NCBI RefSeq assembly: GCF_030252425.1
Contig: NZ_CP126994.1
Coordinates: 620,001-684,000 of the forward strand
Reading direction: 5' to 3'
Source of the DNA: Acidisoma sp. PAMC 29798
GTDB lineage: Bacteria > Pseudomonadota > Alphaproteobacteria > Acetobacterales > Acetobacteraceae
DNA length: 64,000 nucleotides
In this document: piece by piece, positions 37,043 through 53,435 of the stretch
Layout: every line of letters starts with the position of its first letter
Position numbering within the stretch: the stretch's first letter is position 1
Translations under genes and position numbers: made by a program
Notes under the pieces: generated by a model
The model's input: only the letters and a program-made list of their open reading frames with translations
Databases searched by the model: none
Told to the model about the DNA's origin: nothing

Positions 37043-37221
37043 GTCTTTTGAACAGCGCGAGCATCTTATTCTTTCCACATAGATCTGGGCTAAAGAGGCG
37101 CGGTGCGCGATATGCCATCGACGAGCGCGATGGTTGGGTGATCGCCGTGAGCCCCCCGATCTGAATTGCGCCTGAATTAGGTTTGATGGTCCGCCGCGGC
37201 GGGTCATTGGGAAGCCTGGCC

Positions 37222-39015
37222 ATGTCCAGCCGCACCTTGTCGGGTAGCCGAACCAGAAGCCAGGCCATCGGCGACTGGGTTGTGCATGCGCCGCAAACGC
37301 TGCGCGCATTGGTTCGGGCGGATGAAATTTGGCTGACGGTCCTGGCGGCTGCAGTCGGCGTTTGCGCCGGCATCATCGTCGTTCTGATGAATGCAACCAT
37401 TCAGCACATGCATGAGACGCTGTTCGATCTGCCCGTAGGCACGCGGCTGTCTTCCTCCTCCGAAGTGGCAATCCCGCGCCTGCTTCTGGTGCCGGCGCTG
37501 GGCGGCCTGCTTCTGGGACTCGCAGGCCTCGCTCTGGCCCGCTGGCGACCGCGCCGCGCCGTCGATCCGATCGAGGCGAATGCGCTGTACGGCGGCCGTA
37601 TGTCCATCACCGACAGTGTGATCGTATGCCTGCAGACCCTGGCCTCCTGCGGGGTTGGCGCATCGGTGGGACTCGAAGCCGGCTATACGCAAATGGGCTC
37701 CGCCATCGCCTCTGCCATCGGGCGCAGTTTCCGCCTGCGCCGCAACGACCTGCGGTTGATGGTGGGCTGCGGCGCGGCCGGGGCCATCGGCGCCGCCTTC
37801 AATGCGCCACTCGCCGGCGCCTTCTATGGCATCGAACTCGTGATCGGCACCTATACGATCGGCAACCTGGCGCCGGTCGTGGTGGCATCGCTGACGGCTG
37901 TCTATGTCGAGCGTGGCGTGATGGGCGGCGTCGGTGGCTTCAACCTTAACCTGCCCTCCGACATTCCGGTCGTGCAATTCATCCCGATTCTCGCCCTCGG
38001 CATCATCTGCGCCTTGGTCGGAATCGCCATCATGCGCGGTGTGACGATCGCCGAGGAATGGTTCCGCCGCAGCCCGCTGCCGGTGTGGTCCAGACCGATG
38101 GTCGGCGGCCTTATCGTGGGTATCTGCGGGCTCGTGACGCCGATGGTGCTGTCCTCCGGCCATGGCGCCCTCCAGGACGGCCTTGGGATCGACTACCCGT
38201 TCATCCTGGTCGGCACGGCGCTGGTCTTGAAATCACTGGCCTCGGCCGTCTCGATCGGGTCGGGGTTTCGGGGCGGCTTGTTCTTCGCCTCCCTGTTTCT
38301 CGGCTCCCTGGTGGGGAAGCTGTTTGCCGATATTCTAACGATGCTCTCCGTGGGCCCGGTTCTGCCTGCCGTCGTCTATGGGCTGATCGGCATGAGCGCC
38401 ATGGCCGTGGCCGTCATCGGCGGGCCACTGACGATGTGCTTCCTGGCCCTGGAAAGCACCCAGAGCTTCCCGCTGACCGTCGCTGTGCTGGCGGCCGTCA
38501 TCGTCTCCTCCCTGACGGCGCGACGGACCTTCGGCTATTCCTTCGCGACCTGGCGCTTCCATCTGCGCGGTGAGGCTATCCGCAGCGCCGTCGATATCGG
38601 CTGGGTCAATACCCTGAGCGTCGGCCGCATGATGCGGCGCGATGTGCGCACGATCCGCACCACCACCAGCCTGGAGTCCTTCCGGCGGGACTTTCCACTG
38701 GGATCGACACACCGCGTCGTCGTAATCGACGATACCGGCCGCTATGCCGGCATCGTGCAGACCGCCGAGGCCTTCAGCCCCGACCTTGTGGTGGAGAACG
38801 TGGGCGAAATCCTGCATTTCGCGGATACCGTTCTGATGCCGCAAATGACGGTCAAGACGGCGGTCGCCATGTTCGAGGAGTCGGAAAGCGACGCGCTGGC
38901 GGTGGTCGATAGTATGGATACCAAGCGGGTGGTCGGGATTCTGACCGAGCAGCATACCCTGCGCCGCTATACCGAAGAGCTTGACCGCCGGCGGCGCGAG
39001 CTTTCGGGCGAGTAA
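37222..39015 (+). CDS. ClC-type chloride channel/antiporter with C-terminal CBS domains
   Basis: About 597 residues with many transmembrane helices. The ClC signatures are GVGASVGLEAGYTQMGSAIAS (the GREGP-like loop, Glu kept), FNAPLAGAFYGIELVIG, GSGFRGGLFFASLFLGSLVGKL and GGPLTMCFLALESTQSF. The cytoplasmic tail from about residue 465 has two CBS-like halves (MMRRDVRTIRTTTSLESF and VLMPQMTVKTAVAMF), likely nucleotide-sensing. The start is ATG 37222 with GGGAAG 7 nt upstream; ATG 37186 is an alternative. Confidence 0.92.
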   Translation: MSSRTLSGSRTRSQAIGDWVVHAPQTLRALVRADEIWLTVLAAAVGVCAGIIVVLMNATIQHMHETLFDLPVGTRLSSSSEVAIPRLLLVPALGGLLLGLAGLALARWRPRRAVDPIEANALYGGRMSITDSVIVCLQTLASCGVGASVGLEAGYTQMGSAIASAIGRSFRLRRNDLRLMVGCGAAGAIGAAFNAPLAGAFYGIELVIGTYTIGNLAPVVVASLTAVYVERGVMGGVGGFNLNLPSDIPVVQFIPILALGIICALVGIAIMRGVTIAEEWFRRSPLPVWSRPMVGGLIVGICGLVTPMVLSSGHGALQDGLGIDYPFILVGTALVLKSLASAVSIGSGFRGGLFFASLFLGSLVGKLFADILTMLSVGPVLPAVVYGLIGMSAMAVAVIGGPLTMCFLALESTQSFPLTVAVLAAVIVSSLTARRTFGYSFATWRFHLRGEAIRSAVDIGWVNTLSVGRMMRRDVRTIRTTTSLESFRRDFPLGSTHRVVVIDDTGRYAGIVQTAEAFSPDLVVENVGEILHFADTVLMPQMTVKTAVAMFEESESDALAVVDSMDTKRVVGILTEQHTLRRYTEELDRRRRELSGE

Positions 39016-39375: not shown

Positions 39376-40692
39376 CTACCGCGTCTTGAGAGCCCGTTTG
39401 CGAGGTCCAAGGACCTCGACCGTCTTGGGCTTCGCATGGACCAGCGGCTGATGTGTCAGCCGCTCGATCAATTGATCGTATTCCCGCAAATAGACGTCGA
39501 GGTCCAAGCTGGCCTCGGCATAACGGCGCGCATTCGCCCGCAGCCGGCGATTGAGCACGTCATCCTCCAGAAGGCGCAGCAGAGCACCGGCTAAAGCATC
39601 GGGGTCCGCGAAGGGCACCAGCAAGCCGGTTTCTTCATCCGTGATGAATTCCCGGACCGGCGGGGTATCGCTGCCGACAATGGCGCAGCCTGACGCGATC
39701 GCCTCCCGCAGAGACCAGGAGGCGACGAACGGATATGTCAGATACACATGCGCGTCCGACCGCCGCAGAATCCCCAGATGCGTGTCGTAGGAGACATGGC
39801 CGAGGAAATGGATGCGATCGAGGTCTAGCTTGCCCTCCATCTCGCGCATGATGGTGGTGCGCCAGCTCGATCCATCCGGTGGCATGGCCCCATAGCCGAC
39901 GTTTTCGTTGCCGACGATCGTGACATGGAGATCCGGCCGCTCCGCTTGCATGGCGGGCAGGGCGCGCATGAACACGTGAAAGCCGCGATACGGCTCCAGG
40001 TTGCGCGCCATATACGTGACCATCTTGTGCTTCGACTCGATGCGGAAGCCATTGGGCAGGGTGTAAGACCGGCTCGCGCGCGGCGCCGGCGGATGACAGG
40101 CCGTAATATCGACGCCTTCCCGCAAAAGGGTGATTCCCTCCTGCGCCCACAGCGGATAGGTGCTCTTCTGCCAGAGCGTCGGCGTTTGTCCGTGACTGCC
40201 AGGTAGGGTCAGCGCCAGGAGATTGACGGCGTTTTTCGATCGCACGCCTGGATAGTCTTCGTCTTTGGTCGGAAATTCCGGGTCGAAATCGACGTCCTGT
40301 CCCTTGGTTTTGTAGAAGAACTCGAAATAGCCCAGCATCGGCGCTGCGGGAAAGACGTCCTTCAGGTTCAGCAATTCCCCCCATCCGTGATGGCCGATGA
40401 TGATATCGGGGCTGAAGCCGAGGGCCTTGATCTGTCGTACGGCCGTGGCCGCTGCTTCGGCGCGCCGGATCGCGATTTCGAATTCCCGCGCGTGTCTGTG
40501 GATGCGCTCATCTGAGGCACGCGGAGAAAAATAGGAAATCTTGCGGACGTTGGGCACCTGATTGGCATTGGGTTCGCTGAGGAAAACGACCTCATGCTGG
40601 TGTGCCACCAGATGACGGACGAGATGGTGATATTGGCCGGGAAAATTCTGGTGGACGATGAGGAAGCGCAAGGATGCTTTACCCGTGGACAA
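39376..40692 (-). CDS. Glycosyltransferase family 4
   Basis: 438 residues, GT-B fold. The N-terminal domain begins LRFLIVHQNFPGQYHHLVRHL and continues HEVVFLSEPNANQVPN. The donor-binding domain has NLEPYRGFHVFMRALP, VTIVGNENVGYG, IHFLGHVSYDTHLGILRRSDAHVYLTYPF and the EX7E-like SLREAIASGCAIVGSDTPPVREF. Retaining sugar transfer onto a glycan or lipid is expected; the sugar is unknown. Most downstream gene of the minus-strand glycosylation/secretion locus (39.4-50.7 kb). Confidence 0.9.
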   Translation of the reverse strand: MSTGKASLRFLIVHQNFPGQYHHLVRHLVAHQHEVVFLSEPNANQVPNVRKISYFSPRASDERIHRHAREFEIAIRRAEAAATAVRQIKALGFSPDIIIGHHGWGELLNLKDVFPAAPMLGYFEFFYKTKGQDVDFDPEFPTKDEDYPGVRSKNAVNLLALTLPGSHGQTPTLWQKSTYPLWAQEGITLLREGVDITACHPPAPRASRSYTLPNGFRIESKHKMVTYMARNLEPYRGFHVFMRALPAMQAERPDLHVTIVGNENVGYGAMPPDGSSWRTTIMREMEGKLDLDRIHFLGHVSYDTHLGILRRSDAHVYLTYPFVASWSLREAIASGCAIVGSDTPPVREFITDEETGLLVPFADPDALAGALLRLLEDDVLNRRLRANARRYAEASLDLDVYLREYDQLIERLTHQPLVHAKPKTVEVLGPRKRALKTR

Positions 40693-40839: not shown

Positions 40840-41829
40840 TCAGCGTTTCCGTGGGATCGGCTTCGACTTCGCGGGCGCTGCCATCGGGCTCGCCTTGGCG
40901 ATGGGCTTGGGTGGCGCGGCGGGGACTTTCGGCACGGCCTTGACCGGCGCTGGGGCCGGGGCCTTCGCGACAGGCACGTTTTCAAGCTTCGCCGATTTGG
41001 TGGTTTTCGGAACGAGCGTCACGCGCATCGCTTCGAGCGGGGACAGACCTTCGGTCTCGCAGCTCTCCTCGCTGCCCACTGGGCCGATCTGCGACCCGTC
41101 CACAAAGCTCGCTTCATAGGTCAGGGTATAGCGCTTGGCCGCCGCCTCGCTCAGCTTCACCTTCAGGCCGAGCAGCGGCAAGGCCATGCCACGGCTGCCG
41201 CAGAACTGTCCCGATTCCGACCAGGGGGATAGCCAGCCGCGCCCGAGGACCGCCTGATAGGTCAGGTCGCTCGGGGCAAGGTCCGCAGGGGCGCGCAGGC
41301 TGAAGCCTTCGATTGCAAATTGGCTGCCCGGCCTGCCCGCCCAATCACCAAAGGCAATGCCGACATCGCCCGTGCTTTGAACATGGGCGACCACGTCATG
41401 CGGCTCCGTGAGGATCATCACGGGACGGCGCGCGGCCCCGGCAACTGCCGCCACCGGTGCGGTCGTCACCGCAGTGGGCGCCGTCTCGGATAGTCGCAGC
41501 ACGCGGATCTTGGGAGGAGCGTCCGACACAGACGTTGACTGGTAAATCGTGATCATCACCTGGGCGGGTCCGCTCATCACCCGGATCAGCGCGGCATCTC
41601 CGGTTCCGCTGAGCCAGCCATCGGACCGAAAGGATGTGATGGCGATATTGCTATCGGTGGGATCGATCGTGGAGACCCGAACGCCTGCAAGGCCGGCGGT
41701 CGGCAAGGGCGATCCGTTGACGAGACAATAGATCCCCGTCTCAAGCATCATCAGATGGGCAGATGACCGCAATTCCTCCACCCGGCTGTCGCCGGTTTGG
41801 GGAGGGGATTGTTTTTCAGCTTGGGACAT
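40840..41829 (-). CDS. Protein with three hydrophobic-W (ChW)-like repeats, function unknown
   Basis: 329 residues with the start at MSQAEKQSPPQTG (41829); the frame opens 17 codons earlier. No signal peptide. The N-terminal ~115 residues form a beta-rich unit (LETGIYCLVNGSPLP, DGWLSGTGDAALIRV, AQVMITIYQS). Residues 149-178, 191-226 and 238-272 look like three copies of a clostridial hydrophobic-W repeat: AHVQSTGD..GDWAGRPGSQ..IEGFSL; YQAVLGRGWLSPW..SGQFCG..LLGLKVKL; YEASFVDGSQIGP..LSPLEAMRVTL. A Lys/Ala/Pro-rich tail of ~55 residues follows. It lies between two glycosyltransferase genes, suggesting glycan recognition. Confidence 0.7.
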   Translation of the reverse strand: MSQAEKQSPPQTGDSRVEELRSSAHLMMLETGIYCLVNGSPLPTAGLAGVRVSTIDPTDSNIAITSFRSDGWLSGTGDAALIRVMSGPAQVMITIYQSTSVSDAPPKIRVLRLSETAPTAVTTAPVAAVAGAARRPVMILTEPHDVVAHVQSTGDVGIAFGDWAGRPGSQFAIEGFSLRAPADLAPSDLTYQAVLGRGWLSPWSESGQFCGSRGMALPLLGLKVKLSEAAAKRYTLTYEASFVDGSQIGPVGSEESCETEGLSPLEAMRVTLVPKTTKSAKLENVPVAKAPAPAPVKAVPKVPAAPPKPIAKASPMAAPAKSKPIPRKR

Positions 41830-41948: not shown

Positions 41949-44900
41949 TCATAATGTCGGTGCTCGATGCGTGATGTCCGGGACGGCGAGCAGGGCATTG
42001 TTGATGCCGGCCGCCGAAAGAGCCAGGGGCAGGACCCAGCCCTTGCCAGTGGCCCGCACGCGTTCCGCCTGGGTCCCGATATCGAACACGGCCACGCGCA
42101 GGCCGGCGGCCCAGGCATCGCTCAGGGCAAAGCACCATGTTTCAGGCCAGATTGAGGGGATGAAGGCCATATCGGCATTCTGCGCCGCAATCTCCTCGAC
42201 CGCCCGATTTTGGGCGAAACGATAGGTGACGAAGACGCGCCCTGTCTCGACAAGGCGATGGTCGTCACGGGTGTAGCCGACAATGACGAACTCCAGAGGG
42301 AGATCGCGCAATGCAGCGTCACGGGCGCAGCCAAGGATGATCTCATAACCTTTTTCGACGCCGATGGCGCCGATGATCGCCACGCGGCGCCGGCCCATGG
42401 CGGGCCGCGCCGTGTCACGGGGGCGGGAGACCTTGGGCCACCGCGTGTCGTCCCCCCAGGGCACGACCTCTGCCTGCAGGGTGGGCAGGTAGCGGCGCAG
42501 GCGCGTGGCGACCTCCGCAGAGGGGACAACGACGCGCCGGGCCGCCGAGAAATCGATCGCGGTTCGCTGGCGCAGCGCCAAGACGGCGATATCTTCGCGC
42601 AGGCGGCTCCCGAGATCGGCGACGCAGGCGTCGCAGACCGTGTGATCCGGCTCCCCACAATATCTTTTCGATACGGTGACCAATGTCACGCGGGGGCAGA
42701 TGCTGGCGTAATCATGAACGTAGACGTCCATCGGAATGCCGAGGCGCGGCGCAAGATCAAGAAGGCTGTGCCTGTGACCGAGCTGATGATGCAGTTCAAT
42801 GTGGTCGGGATGATCGCGGCGCAGGAGTGCCGCGAGGCTGCCGATGTCGTCGGGGATCGAGAAGCGCAGGTTCGGATAGTCGTCGCGCCAGAGATCTCCT
42901 GTGGCGAGGCCAGGCTCCAGACGGCAGGCGCCGTCCCCGTCCGGTCTCAGGATGACGGGTCTGAACCCAGCCTCCCCAAGATCGCGACAGCGCGTCTTGA
43001 TCTGACGCTCGACACCACCGCCCTCGGCATGGGTGATCAGAATGACGATCGGTGTTTTGGGGCGGGCGTGCCACCGCGCGATATCCAGGCGGAGACGTGC
43101 GAGGGCCAGCGGGTCCCGCGCGACATAGGCTGAAATGAGCGCGCCGTAGCCCGGATGCAAACGTTCGAGGATGCCCAGATTGCGCCGCAGGAGATGCGCG
43201 CGGGCAGCGCGGAAGGAATGGCCACCGACATGGCCCACGAAGATTCCCGGTGCCGCGACATGACGCCAACCGAGGTGGCGCGCGCGCAGGCAGAAATCGT
43301 TCTCCTCGCCATAGCCTTGCGCGAAAACATCCTCCCGAAAGGCGCCGGTATCGCTCAGGCAATCGCGGCGGATGTACATGCAGAATCCGACGCTCGTCGG
43401 GATATCCACCACCGCGCCGCCGTTCACCCGCGCGGCCAGCCGGTCGAGGCGATCGATCGTGCGAAGATCGGGGGCAGGTTGCGCCGCGTTGACGCGCGGA
43501 TAGCTGAGGATCGTCGCGTCGTTGGACAGCGGTGCCACCGTGCCGATGTCGGGGGCTGACCGTGCCGCCGCCGCCAGACGTTCGATGACACCGGCGGGCA
43601 CCAGAGCATCGCTGTTCAGCAGCAGGACATCGCGAAGCCCCGCCGCGCGCATGCCGATATTGGCGCTGGCTGGAAAGCCAAGATTGCGCGGATTGCGGAT
43701 CAGCCGGATGTGCTTGGCGCGGGCGAGATCATCCAACGCGGCGGCCAGCGCAGGTTCCGGCGAATTGTCGTCGACCACGATCAGCGGCGTGCCCTGAGGT
43801 ACCGTCTCCAGCAGTCGCGTCAGACAGAGCAAGGTGGTGTCATACCCGCGATAGACCGGGATAACGACGGCCGGCAGAAGGCGGCGCCCTAAACGGCCGG
43901 GCCTTGGCACCAGGGTCGGCATGGGCACATCTGCCCAAATGGGCATTGTCGGGCGGGGCGGCAGGAGGGGGGGTGCGCGCCGTCGCGCAGGCGCCTCGCC
44001 GTCGCGGGCGGTTTCCACCGCCATCATGCGGCTGACGCCGACCGCCGTCGCGGTCCATTGCCTGGGATCGAGCGGGCTGCCGGTCAGGTCGCGGCCCCAG
44101 GCATCGCGAAGGTGGAGCAGTCCTGCGCGCTCGCCGAGTTGCGCGCGGGAAACCGTGAAAGCGCGGGGTCGTGTCAGGCCATCCATATTGGGATAGCTAG
44201 CGCCGCCGTCCGGTTCGATGGTGAGGACGGGGAAGCGACTGCTTCCCGTTTCCACCGCCGTCTCCACAGTAAGCGGCGCGGCAGTGCTCGGGTCGGCTGG
44301 GCGCCAGGCCCAGCCGCGAAGGTCACCATCAACCACTTCGACGAACCCTTCGACCTCACGCCGGCGGGTCAGATCGATCGGGCTGCCGAGAAAATGCATG
44401 CCATCGGCCATCACCGACAGGCTGCGGGCGGTTCGCCAGCCGCGCGGCAATTGGTGACGACCATCGGGCCGACGTCGCGCTGTGGTGGCGATATCATCGA
44501 AAGCGAGCGCCACTGTCTGATGTCCAACCAGCGTCAGGATGCCGTCGCTATCGACGGCACACCACCCCGGAAGACCGGCTTGGGTCGCGGCCTGGCGCGC
44601 GCTTGACGCGAAGGCAGCGTCTTTTGGCGCGACAAAGCGAGACAAGGTCGCGCCGACGGCATCGCGGAGCAGGGTGGGCATGCCCGTTAGCCCGGCCGCG
44701 GCGATGAGGCCGCTATGGACCGGAAGCGTATCGGACCGCAGCAGCAGGTCGATGAAGAGCGGGTAGGCTTTCCGATCTCGCTGCCTCAGGAGAACGAGAC
44801 CGAGCAGAAAGCTGACCTGAGTATCATCCGGTCCAAGCCGGACAGCCCGCTCCGCCCAATTGCGCGCGGCGACAAGATCCCCGTCATTGAGTGCCGCATG

Positions 44901-45026
44901 ACCCTTCCGCCACGCCGCCAGGCCGAGGTCGAGCGCCTGCAACGCCGGGCGATCATCATCGGCCAGAAGCCACATCGCATCAGGGGGTCGATGGTCGCTG
45001 TCGGAACCAGAAGGCGCTTTCGGCAT
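41949..45026 (-). CDS. Large multidomain glycosyltransferase: TPR-like N-terminus, GT2 and GT4 domains
   Basis: 1025 residues. The first ~100 residues resemble TPR helices (NDGDLVAARNWAERAVRLGPDD). Residues ~225-330 form a small beta domain (VEGFVEVVDGDLRGWAWRP). A GT2 GT-A domain spans ~385-630: AVVIPVYRGYD, VVDDNSPEP, NLGFPASANIGM, LLLNSDAL and GYGEENDFCLRARHLGW. From ~658 a GT4-like domain begins with IVILITHAEGGGVERQIK and ends with AFIPSIWPETWCFALSDAWAAGLRVAVFD. Two activities in one chain suggest sequential sugar additions. The gene follows the Sel1-repeat gene by 45 nt. Confidence 0.88.
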   Translation of the reverse strand: MPKAPSGSDSDHRPPDAMWLLADDDRPALQALDLGLAAWRKGHAALNDGDLVAARNWAERAVRLGPDDTQVSFLLGLVLLRQRDRKAYPLFIDLLLRSDTLPVHSGLIAAAGLTGMPTLLRDAVGATLSRFVAPKDAAFASSARQAATQAGLPGWCAVDSDGILTLVGHQTVALAFDDIATTARRRPDGRHQLPRGWRTARSLSVMADGMHFLGSPIDLTRRREVEGFVEVVDGDLRGWAWRPADPSTAAPLTVETAVETGSSRFPVLTIEPDGGASYPNMDGLTRPRAFTVSRAQLGERAGLLHLRDAWGRDLTGSPLDPRQWTATAVGVSRMMAVETARDGEAPARRRAPPLLPPRPTMPIWADVPMPTLVPRPGRLGRRLLPAVVIPVYRGYDTTLLCLTRLLETVPQGTPLIVVDDNSPEPALAAALDDLARAKHIRLIRNPRNLGFPASANIGMRAAGLRDVLLLNSDALVPAGVIERLAAAARSAPDIGTVAPLSNDATILSYPRVNAAQPAPDLRTIDRLDRLAARVNGGAVVDIPTSVGFCMYIRRDCLSDTGAFREDVFAQGYGEENDFCLRARHLGWRHVAAPGIFVGHVGGHSFRAARAHLLRRNLGILERLHPGYGALISAYVARDPLALARLRLDIARWHARPKTPIVILITHAEGGGVERQIKTRCRDLGEAGFRPVILRPDGDGACRLEPGLATGDLWRDDYPNLRFSIPDDIGSLAALLRRDHPDHIELHHQLGHRHSLLDLAPRLGIPMDVYVHDYASICPRVTLVTVSKRYCGEPDHTVCDACVADLGSRLREDIAVLALRQRTAIDFSAARRVVVPSAEVATRLRRYLPTLQAEVVPWGDDTRWPKVSRPRDTARPAMGRRRVAIIGAIGVEKGYEIILGCARDAALRDLPLEFVIVGYTRDDHRLVETGRVFVTYRFAQNRAVEEIAAQNADMAFIPSIWPETWCFALSDAWAAGLRVAVFDIGTQAERVRATGKGWVLPLALSAAGINNALLAVPDITHRAPTL

Positions 45027-45071: not shown

Positions 45072-46907
45072 TTAGCGATTGATGAGCTGCAGGCTCGCGG
45101 TGGTCTGAGGCGGCGGATGGATTTCCAGAGACTCGGTCAATTCGATCGGCGTCGAGGTTGCGGGCGCCGTGGCCGCTGCATCGTACCGACGCATCTCAAC
45201 CGCGGCTTCCGCAATGCCATTGTCCTGAGCGCGCTTGAACCAGACCCGCGCCTCCTCCAGGTTGGCGGGCCCGGCAATTCCCAGCGCCAAGTAGCGGGCC
45301 AGCATCAACTGCGCCTGCGGATGGCTGCGGTCGGCGGCTTCGCGAAACCAATGCATGGCAAGCGCGCGATCGGTCTGTACGTCGTGACCGCCGCCATACA
45401 GGGCACCGAGCCCGAACATGGCGCCGCCATGACCGGATGCTGCGGCTTTCGCGAAAAGGCGTGCCGCTTCGTGATGATCGCGCGCCCCGCCGCGACCGTT
45501 GACCATCATTTCGGCGAGAGCAACCTGGGCATCGGCCATGCCATGGTCGGCCGCCTTGGTGAACCATATCCGTGCGGCAACCATGTCCACGGGGATACCG
45601 GTGCCGTCTGCGAGCATCCGGCCGTAGTGATACTGCGCATTGACGATGCCATCGGCGGCACGGTGCATCCAGAAGGCCGCGCGCTCGGGGTCTGGTTCGA
45701 TACCGAAGCCACGGGACAGGCAGACACTGAAATTGAACGCGGCCATCAGGTCGCCGCTTTCGGCCGCCTGTTCGAACCAAGACCGCATCCGATCGGGATC
45801 GGCGTCGCGGACATCGCCTTGCAAGACCAGATTGGCCAGATCGACCTGGGACCGAACATTGCCGGCGGCGGCGGCCCGGTCGAACCAGATCGCAGCCTCC
45901 TCGGCATTGCGGGCAACGCCCGCGCCGGTCAGGTAGAGCATGCCAAGCGCACGGGCGGCCATGGCGTGACCGCCTTCCGCCGCGCGCTGGAACCATGTGG
46001 CGGCTTCCGCGAAATTCGGCGGAAGATCGCCCCCCTTGGCATAGAGGTCTCCGACCAAGGCCGACGCCTCGAGGTCACCGGCAAGTGCCGCGCGCCGGAG
46101 CCAGGATTCCCCCGTGACCTTGTCAGCCTTGTGGCCGCGCCCTTCCATCAAGGCGAGGCCGTAGCGCGACATCGCGGAACGGAGGCCCCGGTTGGCCGCT
46201 TTTTCGTAGAGCTTGATGGCGGACGACATATCCTTTGCAAGCCCGACGCCGTGTTCGAGCAAGACCCCGTGGAGGTATTGCGCCATAGGCAGGTCGAACT
46301 CGGGCGCCGCCGCAGCGACAATCGAGGCCACGCCTTGGGATTGCAGAGCGTCATCCCCACCGCCACGGCGCAGAAGAGAAAGGCCGAGGCCGAGCTTGCC
46401 CTGCGCGCTGCCGCTTTCCGCGCACCGCTTATACCAAGTTTCGGCCTCTTCGAGGTTTTGGATCGCCTCGGGGCCGACACTCAGAATATAGCCCAGGAGC
46501 GCCTGCCCATCGGCCGATCCGCCTTCGGCCGCACGACGGGCCCAGCGCTCGGCGGTGATGAAGTCGGGTTGGGCGGCGCGCTCCTCGCTAAACATACCGG
46601 ACCGGCGACCGGCTGGCGCATCTTCCGCTTGTCCTGTGACCAGTAAGGTCGCCAGGGCGGCTTGCGCTTCGGCGAAGCCCTGGCTGGCGGAGAGCTCCAG
46701 CCAGCGCCGGCCTTCGGTCCGGCTTGGGGGGACGCCTTTTCCCTGCAGGTAACAGAGGCCGACACGATATTCCGCGGCCGGAAGCTTGGTTTGGGCGGCG
46801 CGCGCGACCAGCTTAAACCCTTCGGCGCCTTCGCCTGCCTCAATAAGCGCTTCTCCGCGCTGCAGAAGTTTGGTGTCTTTGCGCGATGTCAGCCAGCCGA
46901 AAGCCAA
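45072..46907 (-). CDS. Sel1-like repeat protein
   Basis: 611 residues made almost wholly of Sel1-type repeats (~36 residues each, roughly 13-14 copies). Examples are AEYRVGLCYLQGKGVPPSRTEG, AMSRYGLALMEGRGHKA, AARALGMLYLTGAGVARNAEEA and AQYHYGRMLADGTGIPVDMVAA, interspersed with WFxxAAExG helices. No signal peptide. Such solenoids act as scaffolds for protein complexes. The context between a glycosyltransferase and a type I exporter suggests it organises glycosylation or secretion; this is inference. Confidence 0.92.
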   Translation of the reverse strand: MAFGWLTSRKDTKLLQRGEALIEAGEGAEGFKLVARAAQTKLPAAEYRVGLCYLQGKGVPPSRTEGRRWLELSASQGFAEAQAALATLLVTGQAEDAPAGRRSGMFSEERAAQPDFITAERWARRAAEGGSADGQALLGYILSVGPEAIQNLEEAETWYKRCAESGSAQGKLGLGLSLLRRGGGDDALQSQGVASIVAAAAPEFDLPMAQYLHGVLLEHGVGLAKDMSSAIKLYEKAANRGLRSAMSRYGLALMEGRGHKADKVTGESWLRRAALAGDLEASALVGDLYAKGGDLPPNFAEAATWFQRAAEGGHAMAARALGMLYLTGAGVARNAEEAAIWFDRAAAAGNVRSQVDLANLVLQGDVRDADPDRMRSWFEQAAESGDLMAAFNFSVCLSRGFGIEPDPERAAFWMHRAADGIVNAQYHYGRMLADGTGIPVDMVAARIWFTKAADHGMADAQVALAEMMVNGRGGARDHHEAARLFAKAAASGHGGAMFGLGALYGGGHDVQTDRALAMHWFREAADRSHPQAQLMLARYLALGIAGPANLEEARVWFKRAQDNGIAEAAVEMRRYDAAATAPATSTPIELTESLEIHPPPQTTASLQLINR

Positions 46908-47125: not shown

Positions 47126-48517
47126 TTAGTTCGGCTCACGCATTCCGGTCGTGAAGGCCGGAAGAACGCGCTTGGCCAAGTATTCCATAATCGTCCGCTT
47201 ACCGATCTTCACGTCGGCGTCGACCGGCATGCCCGGCGTCAGAACAAAGCCAGGCGGCAGGTTGTGCAACTCGTTTCCGTCAATTTCGATATGGGCACGA
47301 TAGAAGAGGCTTGTGGGTGCGGTGCCATTGACGTCCGATACGGCGCCAGACCCGACATCCGCTGGGTCAAACGAATCGGCACTGATCGACGTGACCTTAC
47401 CCTTCAAGTCGCCATACATTGTAAAAGGCAGAGATGAGAGTTTGATATCCACGGGATTGCCGGGTGCCACAAACCCTGACACGCTGCCATCGAGGTTTGC
47501 GTCAACCTGCAGCGGCGCATTGAGCGGTGTCAGGCTGATAAACTGCTGCCCACTCTGCAGAACCGAACCCACGGATACATGCGCAAGGGTCAGCACCACG
47601 GCATCCCTATCTGCGCGTATATCGACCAGCTGATGAATTTTGGTGTCCTTGGTCAGGCTCTGCTGCGCGGTTGCGAGCGAATTTCCGGCGACCTGAAGCT
47701 GCTGGGAGAGGTTGGAGAACCACTGCTGAATGAAAGCCTCACGCTGCGCTTCAATCGAGGCGATATCACCCTGGGCCTTGCGAGCCTGGGCATTGGCGTC
47801 GGCCAGATTTCCGGCGATGCTCAATCGGGTATCGGCGGCCGCGAGGGAGTCGAGCCGGCTGCCGACCTGCATCTGCTGCAATTGGCTTCTCATCGCCTCG
47901 ACATTCGCCGCTAGAGCGAGCCGCTGCGAATATTGCTGAACATCCCCGACAGCCTGTTGATAGGTCGCCTGAAGACTCGCGATCTGCTGGTCGAAGTTTT
48001 GGACACCCGCGTGATACTGGGACTGCAATTGGTTGTAGCTGGCGAGTTGCATTGCCGACTGGCCATTAATGACGCTGGGGACATAGGGCCGGTTTGCCAG
48101 CTGAGCATTGAGCCGTTCGACCTGCGCGGAAAAACTGTCGACCTGTTCCTGATCGGCTTTCAGGTCGGCCGCAGTGAAGGTCGGGTCCAACTCAGCCAGC
48201 AGATCCCCTTTATGAACCACCTGACCCGCGTGCACATAGATATTGCGCACGATTGACGTCTCGAGCGGTTGCACCAGCGTCGTCGGAACGGTGGACACAA
48301 GTTTGCCTTCGCCCGTGACAACCTTGTCCGTCTTGATAACGCAACCGGCGACGATGCAGGCGGCCACGCCTACGCCCACCATCAGCGTCACGTAGCGTGC
48401 GGACTGCGGGACAGGCGTCGCAATGAGCGCCGCGGTCGGCGACTGAAATTCGAGAATCGCCAGGGCATCGCCCTGGGGATCAATCGCCTTGGGCGAGGAC
48501 AGGAGTCGGCGAGCCAT
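47126..48517 (-). CDS. Type I secretion periplasmic adaptor (HlyD family)
   Basis: 463 residues. A cytoplasmic N-terminus and one membrane helix (YVTLMVGVGVAACIVAGCV) lead to VTGEGKLVSTVPTTLVQPLETSIVRNIYVHAGQVVHKGDLLAELDP, the split lipoyl/barrel-sandwich hairpin. Long alpha-helical coiled coils (about 110-300) precede the returning IRADRDAVVLTLAHVSVGSVLQSGQ and a beta-barrel end with LTPGMPVDADVKIGKRTIMEYL. It bridges the ABC exporter to an outer-membrane channel, which is not in the window. The start overlaps the end of the ABC gene by 38 nt. Confidence 0.93.
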   Translation of the reverse strand: MARRLLSSPKAIDPQGDALAILEFQSPTAALIATPVPQSARYVTLMVGVGVAACIVAGCVIKTDKVVTGEGKLVSTVPTTLVQPLETSIVRNIYVHAGQVVHKGDLLAELDPTFTAADLKADQEQVDSFSAQVERLNAQLANRPYVPSVINGQSAMQLASYNQLQSQYHAGVQNFDQQIASLQATYQQAVGDVQQYSQRLALAANVEAMRSQLQQMQVGSRLDSLAAADTRLSIAGNLADANAQARKAQGDIASIEAQREAFIQQWFSNLSQQLQVAGNSLATAQQSLTKDTKIHQLVDIRADRDAVVLTLAHVSVGSVLQSGQQFISLTPLNAPLQVDANLDGSVSGFVAPGNPVDIKLSSLPFTMYGDLKGKVTSISADSFDPADVGSGAVSDVNGTAPTSLFYRAHIEIDGNELHNLPPGFVLTPGMPVDADVKIGKRTIMEYLAKRVLPAFTTGMREPN

Positions 48518-50741
48518 GGCGCGGGTTTCCCTGGTTGTCCGTAATGTGGCGGTTCTGCTGCAGCCACAGCATGCGGTAGACGGGGCAACGCTCTACGAGT
48601 TCGGCATGGGTGCCGACGTCGAGTACGGTGCCACGATCCATCACGATGATGGCGTTGCAATCGACGAGCGAAGACAAGCGATGAGACACGATCACCATCG
48701 TCCGCCCCGCGCCGATGCGCTTGAGGTTGGCGTTGACCAAGGCCTCGCTTTCCGGATCGAGTGCGCTCGTCGCCTCGTCGAGGATCATCAGGCGAGGGTC
48801 GGTGATGACAGCGCGGGCAATCGCCAGCCGCTGCCTCTGACCACCGGACAGGTTAGGCGAACCTTCCTGGATGAAGGTGTCATAGCCCGCCGGCATGCGT
48901 TCGATGAACTCTTCCGCACCGGCCAAACGCGCAGCCCGGACAACGTCTTCCATCGTCAGTCCAGCGCGGCCACCGATGATATTGTCCCGGATCGACCCAC
49001 GAAACAGGAAGTTTTCCTGCAGCACGACGCCGAAATTGCGACGCAGATGGCGCAGATTGATGGAGCGAAGTTCCACGCCATCGATTTTCACGAAGCCCAT
49101 ATAGTCACGGCTGATGCCTTGTAGCAGGCGCGTGATCGTGGACTTGCCCGACCCGCTTCGGCCCACAAGGCCAAGCATGGTGCCAGCCGGGACCGAGAAG
49201 TTGACGTCATCCAAGGCCGGGCGAACGGAGCCATTATAGGTAAAGAAGACGCTGTCGAACTCGATCGCGCCGGCAAAGTTCGGCCGCAAGCCACGGTCGA
49301 TGCCACGGATTTCAGGCGGCGTGTTGATCACGGCCTGCACTTCGCCCATCGTGGCGCGGACATCCTCGAAATCCTGCATCAGCTTGGCAAAACTTACCAA
49401 GGGCGAGGCCACCCGCATCGACAGCATCGAGAAGGCCATCAGGGAGCCGATTTCGGCCTCGTTCTTGGAGACCATGGCCATATAAGCCCCCAACAGCATG
49501 ACGCCATATTGGCAGTAGCGCTGCAACGGAATGGTCAGGGTCTGCGGCCAAAGTGCGAGCCGGCCGGCCTTGAGGCGGAGATCGCCGGCTTGCGCCACAT
49601 TCTCGTCCCACTGGCTGTAGCGCACCGATTCGAGGGCCAGTGACTTGACGGTTTTGATGCCGTGAAGGGTTTCGATCAAGACAGAGAATTTACGCGATTC
49701 CGCGCCCGCCACCTTGCCGGTCAGTTCCCGCAGGGGGCGCAGGAAGCAGGCGATGATCAGCATGATCAGGCCTGCCGCCGCGACGATCGTCCAGGCCAGC
49801 GTCGCATTCATGAAGAAGAGCAGCGGGAGCAAGATCGCCAGCATAATGCCGTCAATGAATGTCGTCAGCAGCCGGCCGGTGATGAATTCGCGGATCGTAT
49901 TGATCTTGCCGATGGCGCTGCCGATGATGCCGAGCTGCGTGCGCTCGAAATAGTCGAGGGGCAGGGACACCAGCCGCTTGAAGACGAAAAGCTGAATCTT
50001 TGCATCGATCCGGGTCGATACGACCTGCAGCAAATTGCCGCGCGCATGCTCGATCAAGGCATCGAACAGCACAACCACCAGCATGATAATACACACGAGC
50101 GTCAGGGTGCTCATGCTGTGATATTCGATGATGCGCTGGATCGCAGAATAGACGACCAGAATAGGCGCGATCGTCAGGATGGTGATGATCAGGGAGGCGA
50201 AGGCAATGCTGCGCAGAAGATGTCTCTCCGCCATAACAAGCTTCGTGAGAAAGCCGAAGCTCAGCGGAACGTCCTGGTCGTTGTCACCCCGTTGAGGGCG
50301 AATAAGAAGCACTTCGCCTTCCCAGACCTGGGACAGCCGCAACTCATCCACGGGAACAGAGACACCGCCCCCACTCATGGTAGGCTCTTTGACGAAGACC
50401 AGATTTCGGGCCGGATCAACCTCGACCATCAGGACGGCGCCGCCATCCTTCATGAGGAGCATGACCGGGCCAGCCGATTCCAGCCGCATGAGCTGCTGCC
50501 ATTTCATGCGGATGGCCTTGGCCCAAAGCCCCTGCTCCCGAAGCCATTCGACCAGCGCGGCCGGTGACGGCACGGGCGTGGTGGGATCAATGCGGAAGGT
50601 CGTGGGATCGAGATCGATGCCGTGATAGCGGGCGATCGCCAGCGCGCCGACAAGCCAGGTATGAAGGCCGGGTTCCCGGCTGACCGATGTCTCGTTGATG
50701 TGCCCGGAGGCCGAGGGATCAAACTCGTTCATTGTATCCAT
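48480..50741 (-). CDS. Type I secretion ABC transporter with C39-like domain
   Basis: 753 residues. Residues 1-150 are a peptidase C39-like domain without the catalytic cysteine (GLHTWLVGALAIARYHG where peptidases have Cys). This is the chaperone-type domain that holds unfolded RTX substrates in HlyB-like exporters. Six membrane helices follow to ~450. The ATPase has Walker A GRSGSGKST 527-535, signature LSGGQ 631-635, Walker B LMILDEATSALD 651-662 and the H-loop His at ~687. No cleavable-leader processing is expected. No substrate gene is adjacent. Confidence 0.94.
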   Translation of the reverse strand: MDTMNEFDPSASGHINETSVSREPGLHTWLVGALAIARYHGIDLDPTTFRIDPTTPVPSPAALVEWLREQGLWAKAIRMKWQQLMRLESAGPVMLLMKDGGAVLMVEVDPARNLVFVKEPTMSGGGVSVPVDELRLSQVWEGEVLLIRPQRGDNDQDVPLSFGFLTKLVMAERHLLRSIAFASLIITILTIAPILVVYSAIQRIIEYHSMSTLTLVCIIMLVVVLFDALIEHARGNLLQVVSTRIDAKIQLFVFKRLVSLPLDYFERTQLGIIGSAIGKINTIREFITGRLLTTFIDGIMLAILLPLLFFMNATLAWTIVAAAGLIMLIIACFLRPLRELTGKVAGAESRKFSVLIETLHGIKTVKSLALESVRYSQWDENVAQAGDLRLKAGRLALWPQTLTIPLQRYCQYGVMLLGAYMAMVSKNEAEIGSLMAFSMLSMRVASPLVSFAKLMQDFEDVRATMGEVQAVINTPPEIRGIDRGLRPNFAGAIEFDSVFFTYNGSVRPALDDVNFSVPAGTMLGLVGRSGSGKSTITRLLQGISRDYMGFVKIDGVELRSINLRHLRRNFGVVLQENFLFRGSIRDNIIGGRAGLTMEDVVRAARLAGAEEFIERMPAGYDTFIQEGSPNLSGGQRQRLAIARAVITDPRLMILDEATSALDPESEALVNANLKRIGAGRTMVIVSHRLSSLVDCNAIIVMDRGTVLDVGTHAELVERCPVYRMLWLQQNRHITDNQGNPRHGSPTPVLAQGD

Positions 50742-51338
50742 TATCGCTTGAGACCTTCCACGGGTCGATCCTCTCGATGTGGCGAGCCGTCAAAGGAACG
50801 ACCCCAAACATTCAATAACGTCAATCTCTCGCTGCGAATGGCAACTTAGTTGACCGGTCCTACCCGATTTTTGCACTGCGGGATACCGGGATTTTCACCC
50901 TTGAGCTTAGCCGCAAATCCTTAACGAATAGATAGCAGTTCGCCGTAATCCCGGCGGTTTCCAGATTACAGCAACTTAATCTTGAATCCCGGTATCGATG
51001 ATATGACCTTGAGCGGCCGCCGTTTCACTGGGGCGATGACAGCTTCAGATGCCCGCAGAATTGCGCCTGACTATGGCCAACCTCGTTTATACTTGTTCTG
51101 ATGATGGTTTGCCTCAAATTGAGCTGGCGTATCGGTCGCGCGTTGATGGCAGGCAGGCGTGGCATTTAGCATCGATCCCGCAGGCAAGCTGCCATCCCAG
51201 ACACGCAACGCCCAACGCTTGCTAAACCGCCGTCGCTGGCGCAAAAGATGCCCCTCGAAAACACCGGCAATGGGCTGGGACGTGACCGAGCGCGCGGGGC
51301 CACTGCCCCTGCCGCGCTTTTCTTGCATGGAGGCAATT
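50742..51338. other. 597-nt intergenic region upstream of the T1SS genes and the EF-G gene
   Basis: The only gap over 300 nt in the window; it is divergent and less GC-rich than its surroundings. It holds three copies of AATCCCGG: in reverse within GATACCGGGATT 50882-50893, forward in TAATCCCGG around 50946-50954, and forward in GAATCCCGGTATC 50984-50996. The first and last form an inverted pair of 12-13 nt about 90 nt apart. A possible plus-strand promoter lies at 51067-51093. I see no coding potential or RNA gene that I can name. Confidence 0.6.
51067..51093 (+). promoter_or_regulatory. Possible sigma70 promoter for the EF-G gene
   Basis: CTGACT at 51067-51072 (4 of 6 matches to TTGACA) and TATACT at 51088-51093 (5 of 6 to TATAAT), spacer 15 nt, shorter than ideal. 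It would give a leader of roughly 240 nt before GTG 51339. Confidence 0.3.
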
Positions 51339-53435
51339 GTGACCAGCACCCCGCCGCTTGGCCTGATCCGAAACATCGGCATCACCGCTCATATCGACGC
51401 CGGCAAGACCACCACCACCGAGCGTATCCTCTATTACACGGGCGTCTCCCACCGGATCGGTGAGGTCCATGACGGCAATACCACGACCGATTACATGGAT
51501 CAGGAGCGTGAGCGCGGCATTACCATCACCTCCGCCGCCGTGACCTGTGAGTGGAAGGGTCACCGCATCAACATCATCGACACGCCCGGCCATATCGATT
51601 TCAACATCGAAGTGAACCGTTCGCTGCGCGTTCTGGACGGTGCTATCTTCATCATCGAGGGCGTGGCGGGCGTGCAGCCCCAGTCCGAGACCAATTGGCG
51701 CCTGGCCGACCGCTATAACGTGCCGCGCATCATCTTCATCAACAAGCTGGACCGCACGGGCGCCGACTTCTACCGCGCCTTTGATACGCTGAAGGAAAAG
51801 CTCGACATCGTCGCACTGCCCTTGCAGCTGCCGATCGGCATCGAGGACACTTTCATCGGCGTCGTCGATCTGATTGAGATGAAGGCCATCATCTGGGAAG
51901 GCGGCGAGCTTGGCGCGGCCTTCCATGATGCTCCGATTCCCGAGGATCTCGCTGAACGGGCCGCCGAGGCCCGCCAGCTTCTGCTCGATACGGCCGTTTC
52001 GGTCGATAACCTGGCCATGGAAGAGTATTTCGAAAAGGGCGACGTTTCGGTCGAGACCCTGAAGCGCTGCATAAAGCGCGGCGCCATCGATGGTACGTTC
52101 CGACCGGTTCTGTGCGGCACGGCCTTCAAGAACAAGGGCGTGCAGCCCTTGCTCGACGCCGTTCTCGACTACCTGCCGTCCCCGATCGACGTGCCGGGCA
52201 TCAAGATCGCCGCCGATGAAGACGTCGAAGACACCCCCGAGCTCGCGGCCGCCCGCCGCGTCATCCCGGCGAACCCCGATGCGCCCTTCGCCGGCCTCGC
52301 CTTCAAGATCATCAACGACAAATACGGCACGCTGACCTTCGTTCGCGTCTATTCGGGCACCCTGAAGTCCGGCGACACGGTCATGAACACGACCAAGGAC
52401 CATCGCGAGCGGATCGGCCGTATGTTCCAGATGCATGCCGACAAGCGCGCCGAGATCAAGGAAGTGTCAGCCGGTGACATCGCGGCCTTCGTCGGCCTCA
52501 AGGATACAGGTACGGGCGACACGCTCGCCTCCTCCGATGATCCGGTGGTGCTGGAGCGCATGGCCTTCCCGGTGCCCGTGATCGATATCTCCGTCGAGCC
52601 GAAGACCAAGGAGGGCGTCGAGAAGATGACCCTCGGCCTGCAGAAGCTCGCCGGCGAAGACCCGTCGCTGCGCCTCAAGACGGACCAGGAGACCGGCCAG
52701 ACCATTCTCTCCGGAATGGGCGAGCTGCATCTGGAAATCATCATCGACCGTCTGAAGCGTGAATATGGCGTGGACGCCAATATCGGCGCCCCGCAGGTCG
52801 CGTATCGCGAGACGATCTCCAAGTCGCACACCGAGACCTATACCCACAAGAAGCAGTCGGGCGGTTCGGGCCAATATGCCGAGGTCAAGATCACCTTCGA
52901 GCCGCTGGAGCGGAACACGGGCGTGGTCTTCGAAAACAAGGTCGTTGGCGGCACTGTCCCCCGGGAATACATTCCGGCCGTAGAAAAGGGCATTCGCGTC
53001 CAGGCCGATACCGGCGTGCTCGCGGGCTTCCAGACCGTCGACTTCAAATACACCCTGATCGACGGCAAGTACCATGACGTCGATTCGTCGGCGCTCGCCT
53101 TCGAAATCGCCGCCAAGGCCTGCTTCCGCGATGGCATGAAGAAGGCCGGCCCGATCATTCTGGAACCGATCATGGACGTGGAGGTCACGACCCCCAACGA
53201 CCACGTTGGTGACGTCGTGGGCGATCTCAATCGGCGCCGCGGCATGATCCAGAACCAGGAAAGCTCGGGGTCCACGGTTATCGTGCGCGCCCATGTGCCG
53301 CTGAAGGAGATGTTCGGCTATATCTCCCACCTGCGCAGCATGACGAAGGGCCGCGCGTCCTTCACCATGCAGTTCCATCACTACGATCCCGTGCCGCGCA
53401 ATGTGGCCGACGAGATCATGGCCAAGAGCGCCTAA
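51339..53435 (+). CDS. fusA: Elongation factor G, stand-alone variant
   Basis: 698 residues. GTPase for ribosome translocation or recycling. G1 is AHIDAGKT (17-24), G3 DTPGH (81-85), G4 NKLD (135-138). The switch and helix regions differ from the usual EF-G ([19 protein letters not shown], then [18 protein letters not shown]). Domain IV has the [16 protein letters not shown] loop. The start is GTG 51339, with GGAGG 5 nt upstream; the frame opens earlier at 51159. It is not in a str operon (no rpsL, rpsG or tuf nearby), so it may be a second EF-G copy. Confidence 0.93.

Follow-up and report, generated by a model that had tools for sequence, protein, structure and literature searches.

ChW repeats (PF07538, IPR006637) are described from surface proteins of Clostridium, Lactococcus and Streptomyces and from endolysins, as repeats of about 35-50 residues that often occur in threes. 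PMC5817068 treats ChW repeats as surface modules, proposed to work in triplets, and states that their ligand is unknown, PMC6700490 reports that the ChW region of a phage endolysin anchors proteins to Lactococcus, and PMC8794177 uses a cyanobacterial ChW mutant as a control. A surface location is typical of the described members and lies outside the sequence definition of the repeat. The heptosyltransferases of the AIDA-I and TibA systems and HMW1C glycosylate autotransporter adhesins in the cytosol prior to export.

We have followed up an earlier note on a window of 64,000 nucleotides from Acidisoma sp. PAMC 29798 (Acetobacteraceae; NZ_CP126994.1, positions 620,001 to 684,000), in which a gene lying between glycosyltransferase genes was proposed to encode three ChW-like segments in a cytoplasmic-looking protein with a Lys/Ala/Pro tail. 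Evidence from homologous loci, domain fusions and genome surveys leads us to the reading, held with a probability of about 0.55, that this protein serves in the cytosol, as the subunit that binds the acceptor or the glycan, a glycosyltransferase coupled to the secretion of a glycoprotein by a type I system. What is new is the setting, a glycosyltransferase and type I secretion cluster, because Pfam already reaches the domain assignment. The PMC literature searched, judged by titles, abstract openings and selected text, yielded no mention of ChW in alphaproteobacterial glycosyltransferases and no function for the six-gene cluster described below.

Results

Sequence evidence for a ChW triplet

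The ChW gene occupies 40840..41829 on the minus strand of the window and encodes 329 residues from an ATG at 41829, an alternative GTG start giving 346 residues, in a host genome of 5.0 Mb. The predicted product consists of an N-terminal beta-rich domain at about residues 14-115 (from a low-confidence model), a linker, the ChW triplet at about 143-276, and a basic Lys/Ala/Pro-rich tail of 53 residues which, with the stop codon, forms the end of the gene (40840..41001, minus strand). PF07538 is the sole Pfam match of the protein at E 5, covering residues 198-227 at 31.8 bits (cut-off 22) with an E-value of 1.2e-7. This match falls within repeat 2 (41149..41259, minus strand; residues 191-227), which carries the motif GWLSPW...GQFCGSRG and was also recognised as ChW when segment 2 was scanned singly against Pfam (E 2.5e-6); segments 1 and 3, scanned in the same way, gave no ChW match.

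Profile comparisons extended this assignment. The domain alignment holds 46 rows, 45 of them distinct (the window and 44 others, some being paralogues or originating from Azospirillum or Aureimonas), and the reference was P0002, a Nostoc plasmid protein with three ChW stretches (E 8e-28), here N1 to N3. Single-repeat profiles covered residues 143-182 (R1), 187-228 (R2) and 232-276 (R3), and each comparison was accompanied by 60 column-shuffled profiles as controls. Repeat 1 (41296..41385, minus strand; residues 149-178), which is of the GD..W type, matched N2, N3 and N1 at E 6.9e-8, 1.7e-6 and 2.2e-5, respectively, and repeat 2 matched N3, N2 and N1 at 1.5e-10, 6.4e-7 and 4.6e-6, with 0/60 shuffles reaching the score in each case. 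Repeat 3 (41014..41118, minus strand; residues 238-272) matched N3 at E 4.6e-5 (probability 68%, 0/60 shuffles), N1 at 0.0013 (19%, 0/60) and N2 at 0.019 (2%, 3/60). Within the ChW protein itself, R2 and R3 matched one another at E 9.8e-5 (0/60), R1 and R2 at 0.003 (1/60) and R1 and R3 at 0.022 (1/60). The whole triplet aligned with P0002 in register (hhalign, 132 columns, E 2.3e-11, 22% identity), and alignments shifted by one repeat also gave scores, in line with the repetitive nature of the proteins, one of these ranking first (E 2e-11 over 80 columns) and the other reaching 1.8e-4 over 86 columns.

Among relatives, PF07538 exceeded its cut-off in L037 (25.4 bits), L030 (33.1), L046 (23.7) and L045 (29.2), L048 and L049 had no Pfam match, and our own domain profile retrieved L046, L048 and L049 at 2.9e-32, 1.5e-20 and 4.8e-13, respectively. 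The absence of Pfam matches from L048 and L049, and of ChW matches from segments 1 and 3 taken singly, might suggest that the resemblance arises from chance GW and LEA motifs. Against this stand the matches above cut-off in the window and in four relatives and the end-to-end profile match to P0002 with its controls; the column shuffles rule chance out, and we regard its probability as negligible. On the single-repeat E-values and shuffle counts, the first two repeats are clear cases and the third, though supported, is degenerate, and at the level of sequence the C-terminal half is a diverged ChW triplet.

No 19-residue stretch of the protein has a mean hydropathy of 1.6 or above, such that no signal or membrane segment is evident by hydropathy prediction and the protein is apparently cytosolic. 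The tail was compared in 32 distinct rows obtained by motif capture over 36 loci, the window included, with two loci being duplicates and two missed. Median tail length is 55 and median net charge +8 (minimum -4), and 30 of the 32 rows have at least three Lys or Arg among the last eight residues. A guess would be that the tail tethers the complex, either at the membrane or by way of an acidic partner. Thus, the ChW membership claimed in the earlier note is upheld, with PF07538 over its cut-off inside the claimed segment 2 and the triplet in register with P0002, and so are the real Lys/Ala/Pro tail and, on hydropathy alone, the cytoplasmic appearance. Its observation of three ChW-like segments is confirmed, by Pfam for the second and by profile for the first, with the third supported in degenerate form and segments 1 and 3 lacking a Pfam match.

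The N-terminal domain matched no Pfam family, the protein matched no NCBIfam family at E 1 and reached only E 0.53 against PHROGs, and two scans of viral contigs detected no relative of it. Fold models built with six alignment rows were weak for the full-length protein (pLDDT 57.2, pTM 0.42) and fair for the ChW domain (pLDDT 70.7, pTM 0.70), strands in the domain model lying chiefly in repeats 2 and 3 with few in repeat 1. Foldseek searches of the PDB with both models returned nothing at E 0.001. The sequence queries used against the PDB retrieved no ChW chain and there was therefore no canonical ChW fold for comparison.

A conserved six-gene cluster

The ChW gene is the fifth of six genes that follow one another on the minus strand. 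A T1SS ABC permease/ATPase of the HlyB-like type (48480..50741; PF00664 and PF00005 above cut-off) is followed by an overlapping gene for a HlyD-type periplasmic adaptor of type I secretion (47126..48517; TIGR01843 above cut-off), a Sel1-repeat protein with 12 Sel1 stretches by Pfam (45072..46907), a 1025-residue TPR-GT2-GT4 glycosyltransferase (41949..45026; Pfam, with TPR matches under cut-off), the ChW protein, and a GT4 glycosyltransferase (39376..40692; PF12000 and PF00534) that holds the same position in relatives. The best NCBIfam match of the ABC protein is TIGR01846 (3e-144), yet under the cut-off of that model; Cys is absent from its first 180 residues, and Walker A and LSGGQ are intact. 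The nearest scanned neighbours on the two flanks are Voltage_CLC (37183-39015) and EF-G (51159-53435).

The ChW protein was matched in 27 genomes, of which the surroundings of 20 were examined together with one added through L041 and the window, G006, G011, G013, G016 and G023 being omitted. Among 25 loci of the family (L037-L041 and L050-L069, window excluded), all picked for holding the ChW gene, 22 carry all six genes in the same order and strand as judged by tblastn. The exceptions are L066, which stops within the TPR-GT gene, L069, where the ChW gene has no adjacent TPR-GT, and L065, which retains TPR-GT, ChW and GT4 and lacks the T1SS and Sel1 genes. Outside these 25, a plasmid locus of A. 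aceti (L044) holds ChW and GT4 only. A 120-genome sample of the family, in which, of the six cluster genes, ChW and TPR-GT were counted (the latter at a threshold of 1e-60), gave ChW in 83 genomes, one of which (G630) had only a weak, domain-only paralogue match, and TPR-GT in 84. Both were present in 81, ChW alone in 2, TPR-GT alone in 3 and neither in 34. Of the 81 genomes with both, 75 have the ChW gene directly downstream of TPR-GT and on its strand, and in the remaining six the two matches were on separate contigs. The conserved association with genes for glycosyltransferases and type I secretion, which a survey of homologues was to look for, is borne out.

Conservation also bears on whether the ChW domain has a ligand here at all, or serves the glycosyltransferases structurally, as a spacer or for dimerisation. 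Such a role would fit the degeneracy of the third repeat and the statement in PMC5817068 that the ChW ligand is unknown. It sits poorly with the strong conservation of the GW.SPW...CGSRGM core across the 46-row domain alignment and with retention of the gene in genomes of about 1.9 Mb (G033, G554 and G590), and we consider it improbable.

Second copies were observed in several genomes. L034 and L035, from two genomes, encode a second, more distant full-length ChW protein (35 and 39% identity), and in G022 this second copy sits behind a second TPR-GT. The window's own genome has a second TPR-GT2-GT4, 42% identical to that of the window (L092:7761-10829), in whose 18 kb surroundings no ChW-domain match was found.

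Fusions and distribution of the ChW domain

On plasmid p6 of Azospirillum argentinense, the TPR-GT and the ChW protein form a single protein of 1380 residues, which aligns with residues 49-1017 of TPR-GT at 41% and with residues 14-275 of the ChW protein at 30%. Its surroundings include an RTX repeat protein, two GT4 glycosyltransferases and two methyltransferases. In the window's family, GT61 is the fusion partner of the ChW domain in L081, L082 (with an extra GT2), L083, L090, L094 and L096, GT90 in L084, and methyltransferases in L085 and L086, above the Methyltransf_24 cut-off, and in L088 and L091, below it; in the L095 fusion the partner is an O-FucT match under its cut-off. Pfam recognises the ChW part of these fusions above cut-off only in L081 and L082, and our own profile detects all of them, together with further ChW-domain reading frames in L087, L089, L093, L097 and L098. 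L081:2767-4836 encodes a GT61 protein followed by two tandem ChW triplets.

In a class-level sample of 240 genomes the ChW-protein profile matched three, each belonging to the window's family and the window's own genome being among them, and PF07538 was found in three of 299 genomes of the phylum sample, identical to those three. Named relatives of the ChW protein come from four Acetobacter species and from an unclassified proteobacterial MAG. Plasmid records with a match came from Azospirillum (10), Niveispirillum (E 3e-5), Aureimonas (6e-11) and Bradyrhizobium (14, at 1e-4 to 1e-2), the last two for the domain alone; matches in Nostoc, Gemmobacter and Deinococcus were at E 1 or worse. A stand-alone three-ChW protein of a Nostoc plasmid (L047:4854-5402) has an N-terminus that, by eye, resembles a twin-arginine signal.

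The fusions and the plasmid relatives raise the alternative that what the cluster makes and exports is a polysaccharide or glycolipid, the ChW domain binding the elongating chain for the ABC exporter. The cluster has three glycosyltransferase domains, ChW is fused to GT61 and other glycosyltransferases where nothing points to a protein acceptor, and the Niveispirillum relative lies near genes annotated as ABC permease, ABC ATPase and rhamnan synthesis. The exporter itself speaks against this, as HlyD passes a type I secretion model, the best NCBIfam match of the ABC protein is the HlyB-type T1SS model, albeit under cut-off, and its N-terminal region is Cys-less; moreover, the nearest scanned gene on each side is not one of polysaccharide export. 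This alternative has to be taken seriously, even if we judge it unlikely.

Candidate substrates

The six-gene cluster contains neither a substrate gene nor the TolC outer-membrane partner. Of 12 hand-chosen cluster-positive genomes, 5 had RTX repeats (PF00353), and none of the 5 genomes of about 1.9-2.2 Mb in that set did; three cluster-negative genomes had 28, 38 and 0 matches. RTX proteins as a general substrate are thus without support, because seven of the 12 cluster-positive genomes lack a PF00353 match at 1e-5.

Many bacteria glycosylate flagellin in the cytosol, and the cluster could conceivably do so, leaving the T1SS genes as bystanders. Flagellin is matched in 66 of the 83 ChW-positive genomes; the other 17, including the window's own, have no PF00669 match at 1e-5, and flagellin and ChW are not associated (Fisher p 0.45). 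The 17 flagellin-less genomes largely refute flagellin as a general substrate, a proposal that we hold to be very unlikely, and in some genomes flagellin may yet be one of the targets. Sixteen of the 17 have Hint_2.

Hint_2 (PF13403) occurs in 78 of 83 ChW-positive and 18 of 37 ChW-negative genomes, with median copy numbers of 5 and 0, respectively. The Fisher p value of 5e-8 for this association ignores kinship and is overstated because the genomes are related. Five ChW-positive genomes have no Hint_2 match and 18 ChW-negative genomes have one; in genus g5, the ChW-negative G008 and its ChW-positive sister G623 both have four Hint_2 genes, a counter-example. Several Hint_2 proteins have Gly/Ser/Thr-rich stretches ahead of the Hint domain. 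Of six that were scanned, at least two being incomplete at a locus edge, AIDA was above cut-off in L124, below it in L090 and L116, and undetected in L044, L112 and L113. By co-occurrence only, and as the most tentative of our suggestions, Hint_2 repeat proteins would be the best substrate candidates. In the window's own genome, L090:79-3411 (contig C1, about 4212078-4215410) is a Hint_2 repeat frame with a C-terminal GT4-like domain (1.4e-14); a GT61 protein whose ChW domain is N-terminal lies about 4 kb away.

Discussion

We propose that the apparently cytosolic ChW triplet, together with the N-terminal domain, would act as an accessory subunit of the adjoining TPR-GT2-GT4, in which it would bind the acceptor or the growing glycan or keep the glycosyltransferases together. 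Recognition of a glycan or substrate is suggested because the domain is fused to glycosyltransferases and methyltransferases. An acceptor protein would then be glycosylated prior to export and would leave the cell by way of the cluster's own ABC/HlyD pair. The exported glycoproteins may be repeat-rich, adhesin-like Hint_2 proteins, the most tentative step of the proposal. Taken as a whole, an undescribed route of glycoprotein secretion in Acetobacteraceae, in which a cytosolic ChW reader serves the GT2-GT4 enzyme, Hint_2 adhesins are glycosylated and a dedicated type I exporter releases them, is possible, and we judge it less likely than not.

Were the proposal true, ChW domains might by extension be glycan-binding in general, which would provide the surface ChW proteins with their missing ligand. 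ChW domains fused to or adjoining glycosyltransferases in acetic acid bacteria, which are easy to culture, suggest a class of ligand, namely the glycan or the acceptor of those enzymes. The ordered six-gene cluster, seen in 22 of the 25 loci and once in a genome as small as 1.9 Mb, lends itself well to mutant studies. A repeat known from Gram-positive surfaces, found here in an apparently intracellular protein and in a conserved set of glycosyltransferase and exporter genes, hints at the way in which surface glycoproteins may be made in these bacteria.

Compared with the ChW proteins described to date, the window's protein has the same core, length and triplet layout, its repeats conforming to the known size and number with the third being weak. 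It differs in that only one of its three repeats passes Pfam, in that the extracellular or cell-wall location of the described members is not apparent, no signal or membrane segment being predicted by hydropathy, and in that it is found in Alphaproteobacteria beside or fused to glycosyltransferases and methyltransferases. The cluster shares with HlyB/HlyD type I secretion an ABC protein with a Cys-less N-terminal region, a HlyD adaptor and overlapping genes, so that both components of such a system are present, with the ABC protein under the TIGR01846 cut-off; unlike those systems it is linked to glycosyltransferase, Sel1 and ChW genes and has no substrate gene of its own. The likeness to AIDA-I/TibA and HMW1C glycosylation is one of analogy, since cytosolic glycosyltransferases there act on repeat-rich adhesins that are exported afterwards. 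In contrast to those systems, the enzymes here are of the GT2 and GT4 families rather than heptosyltransferases or GT41, secretion is of type I rather than type V, and a ChW protein is present as an accessory.
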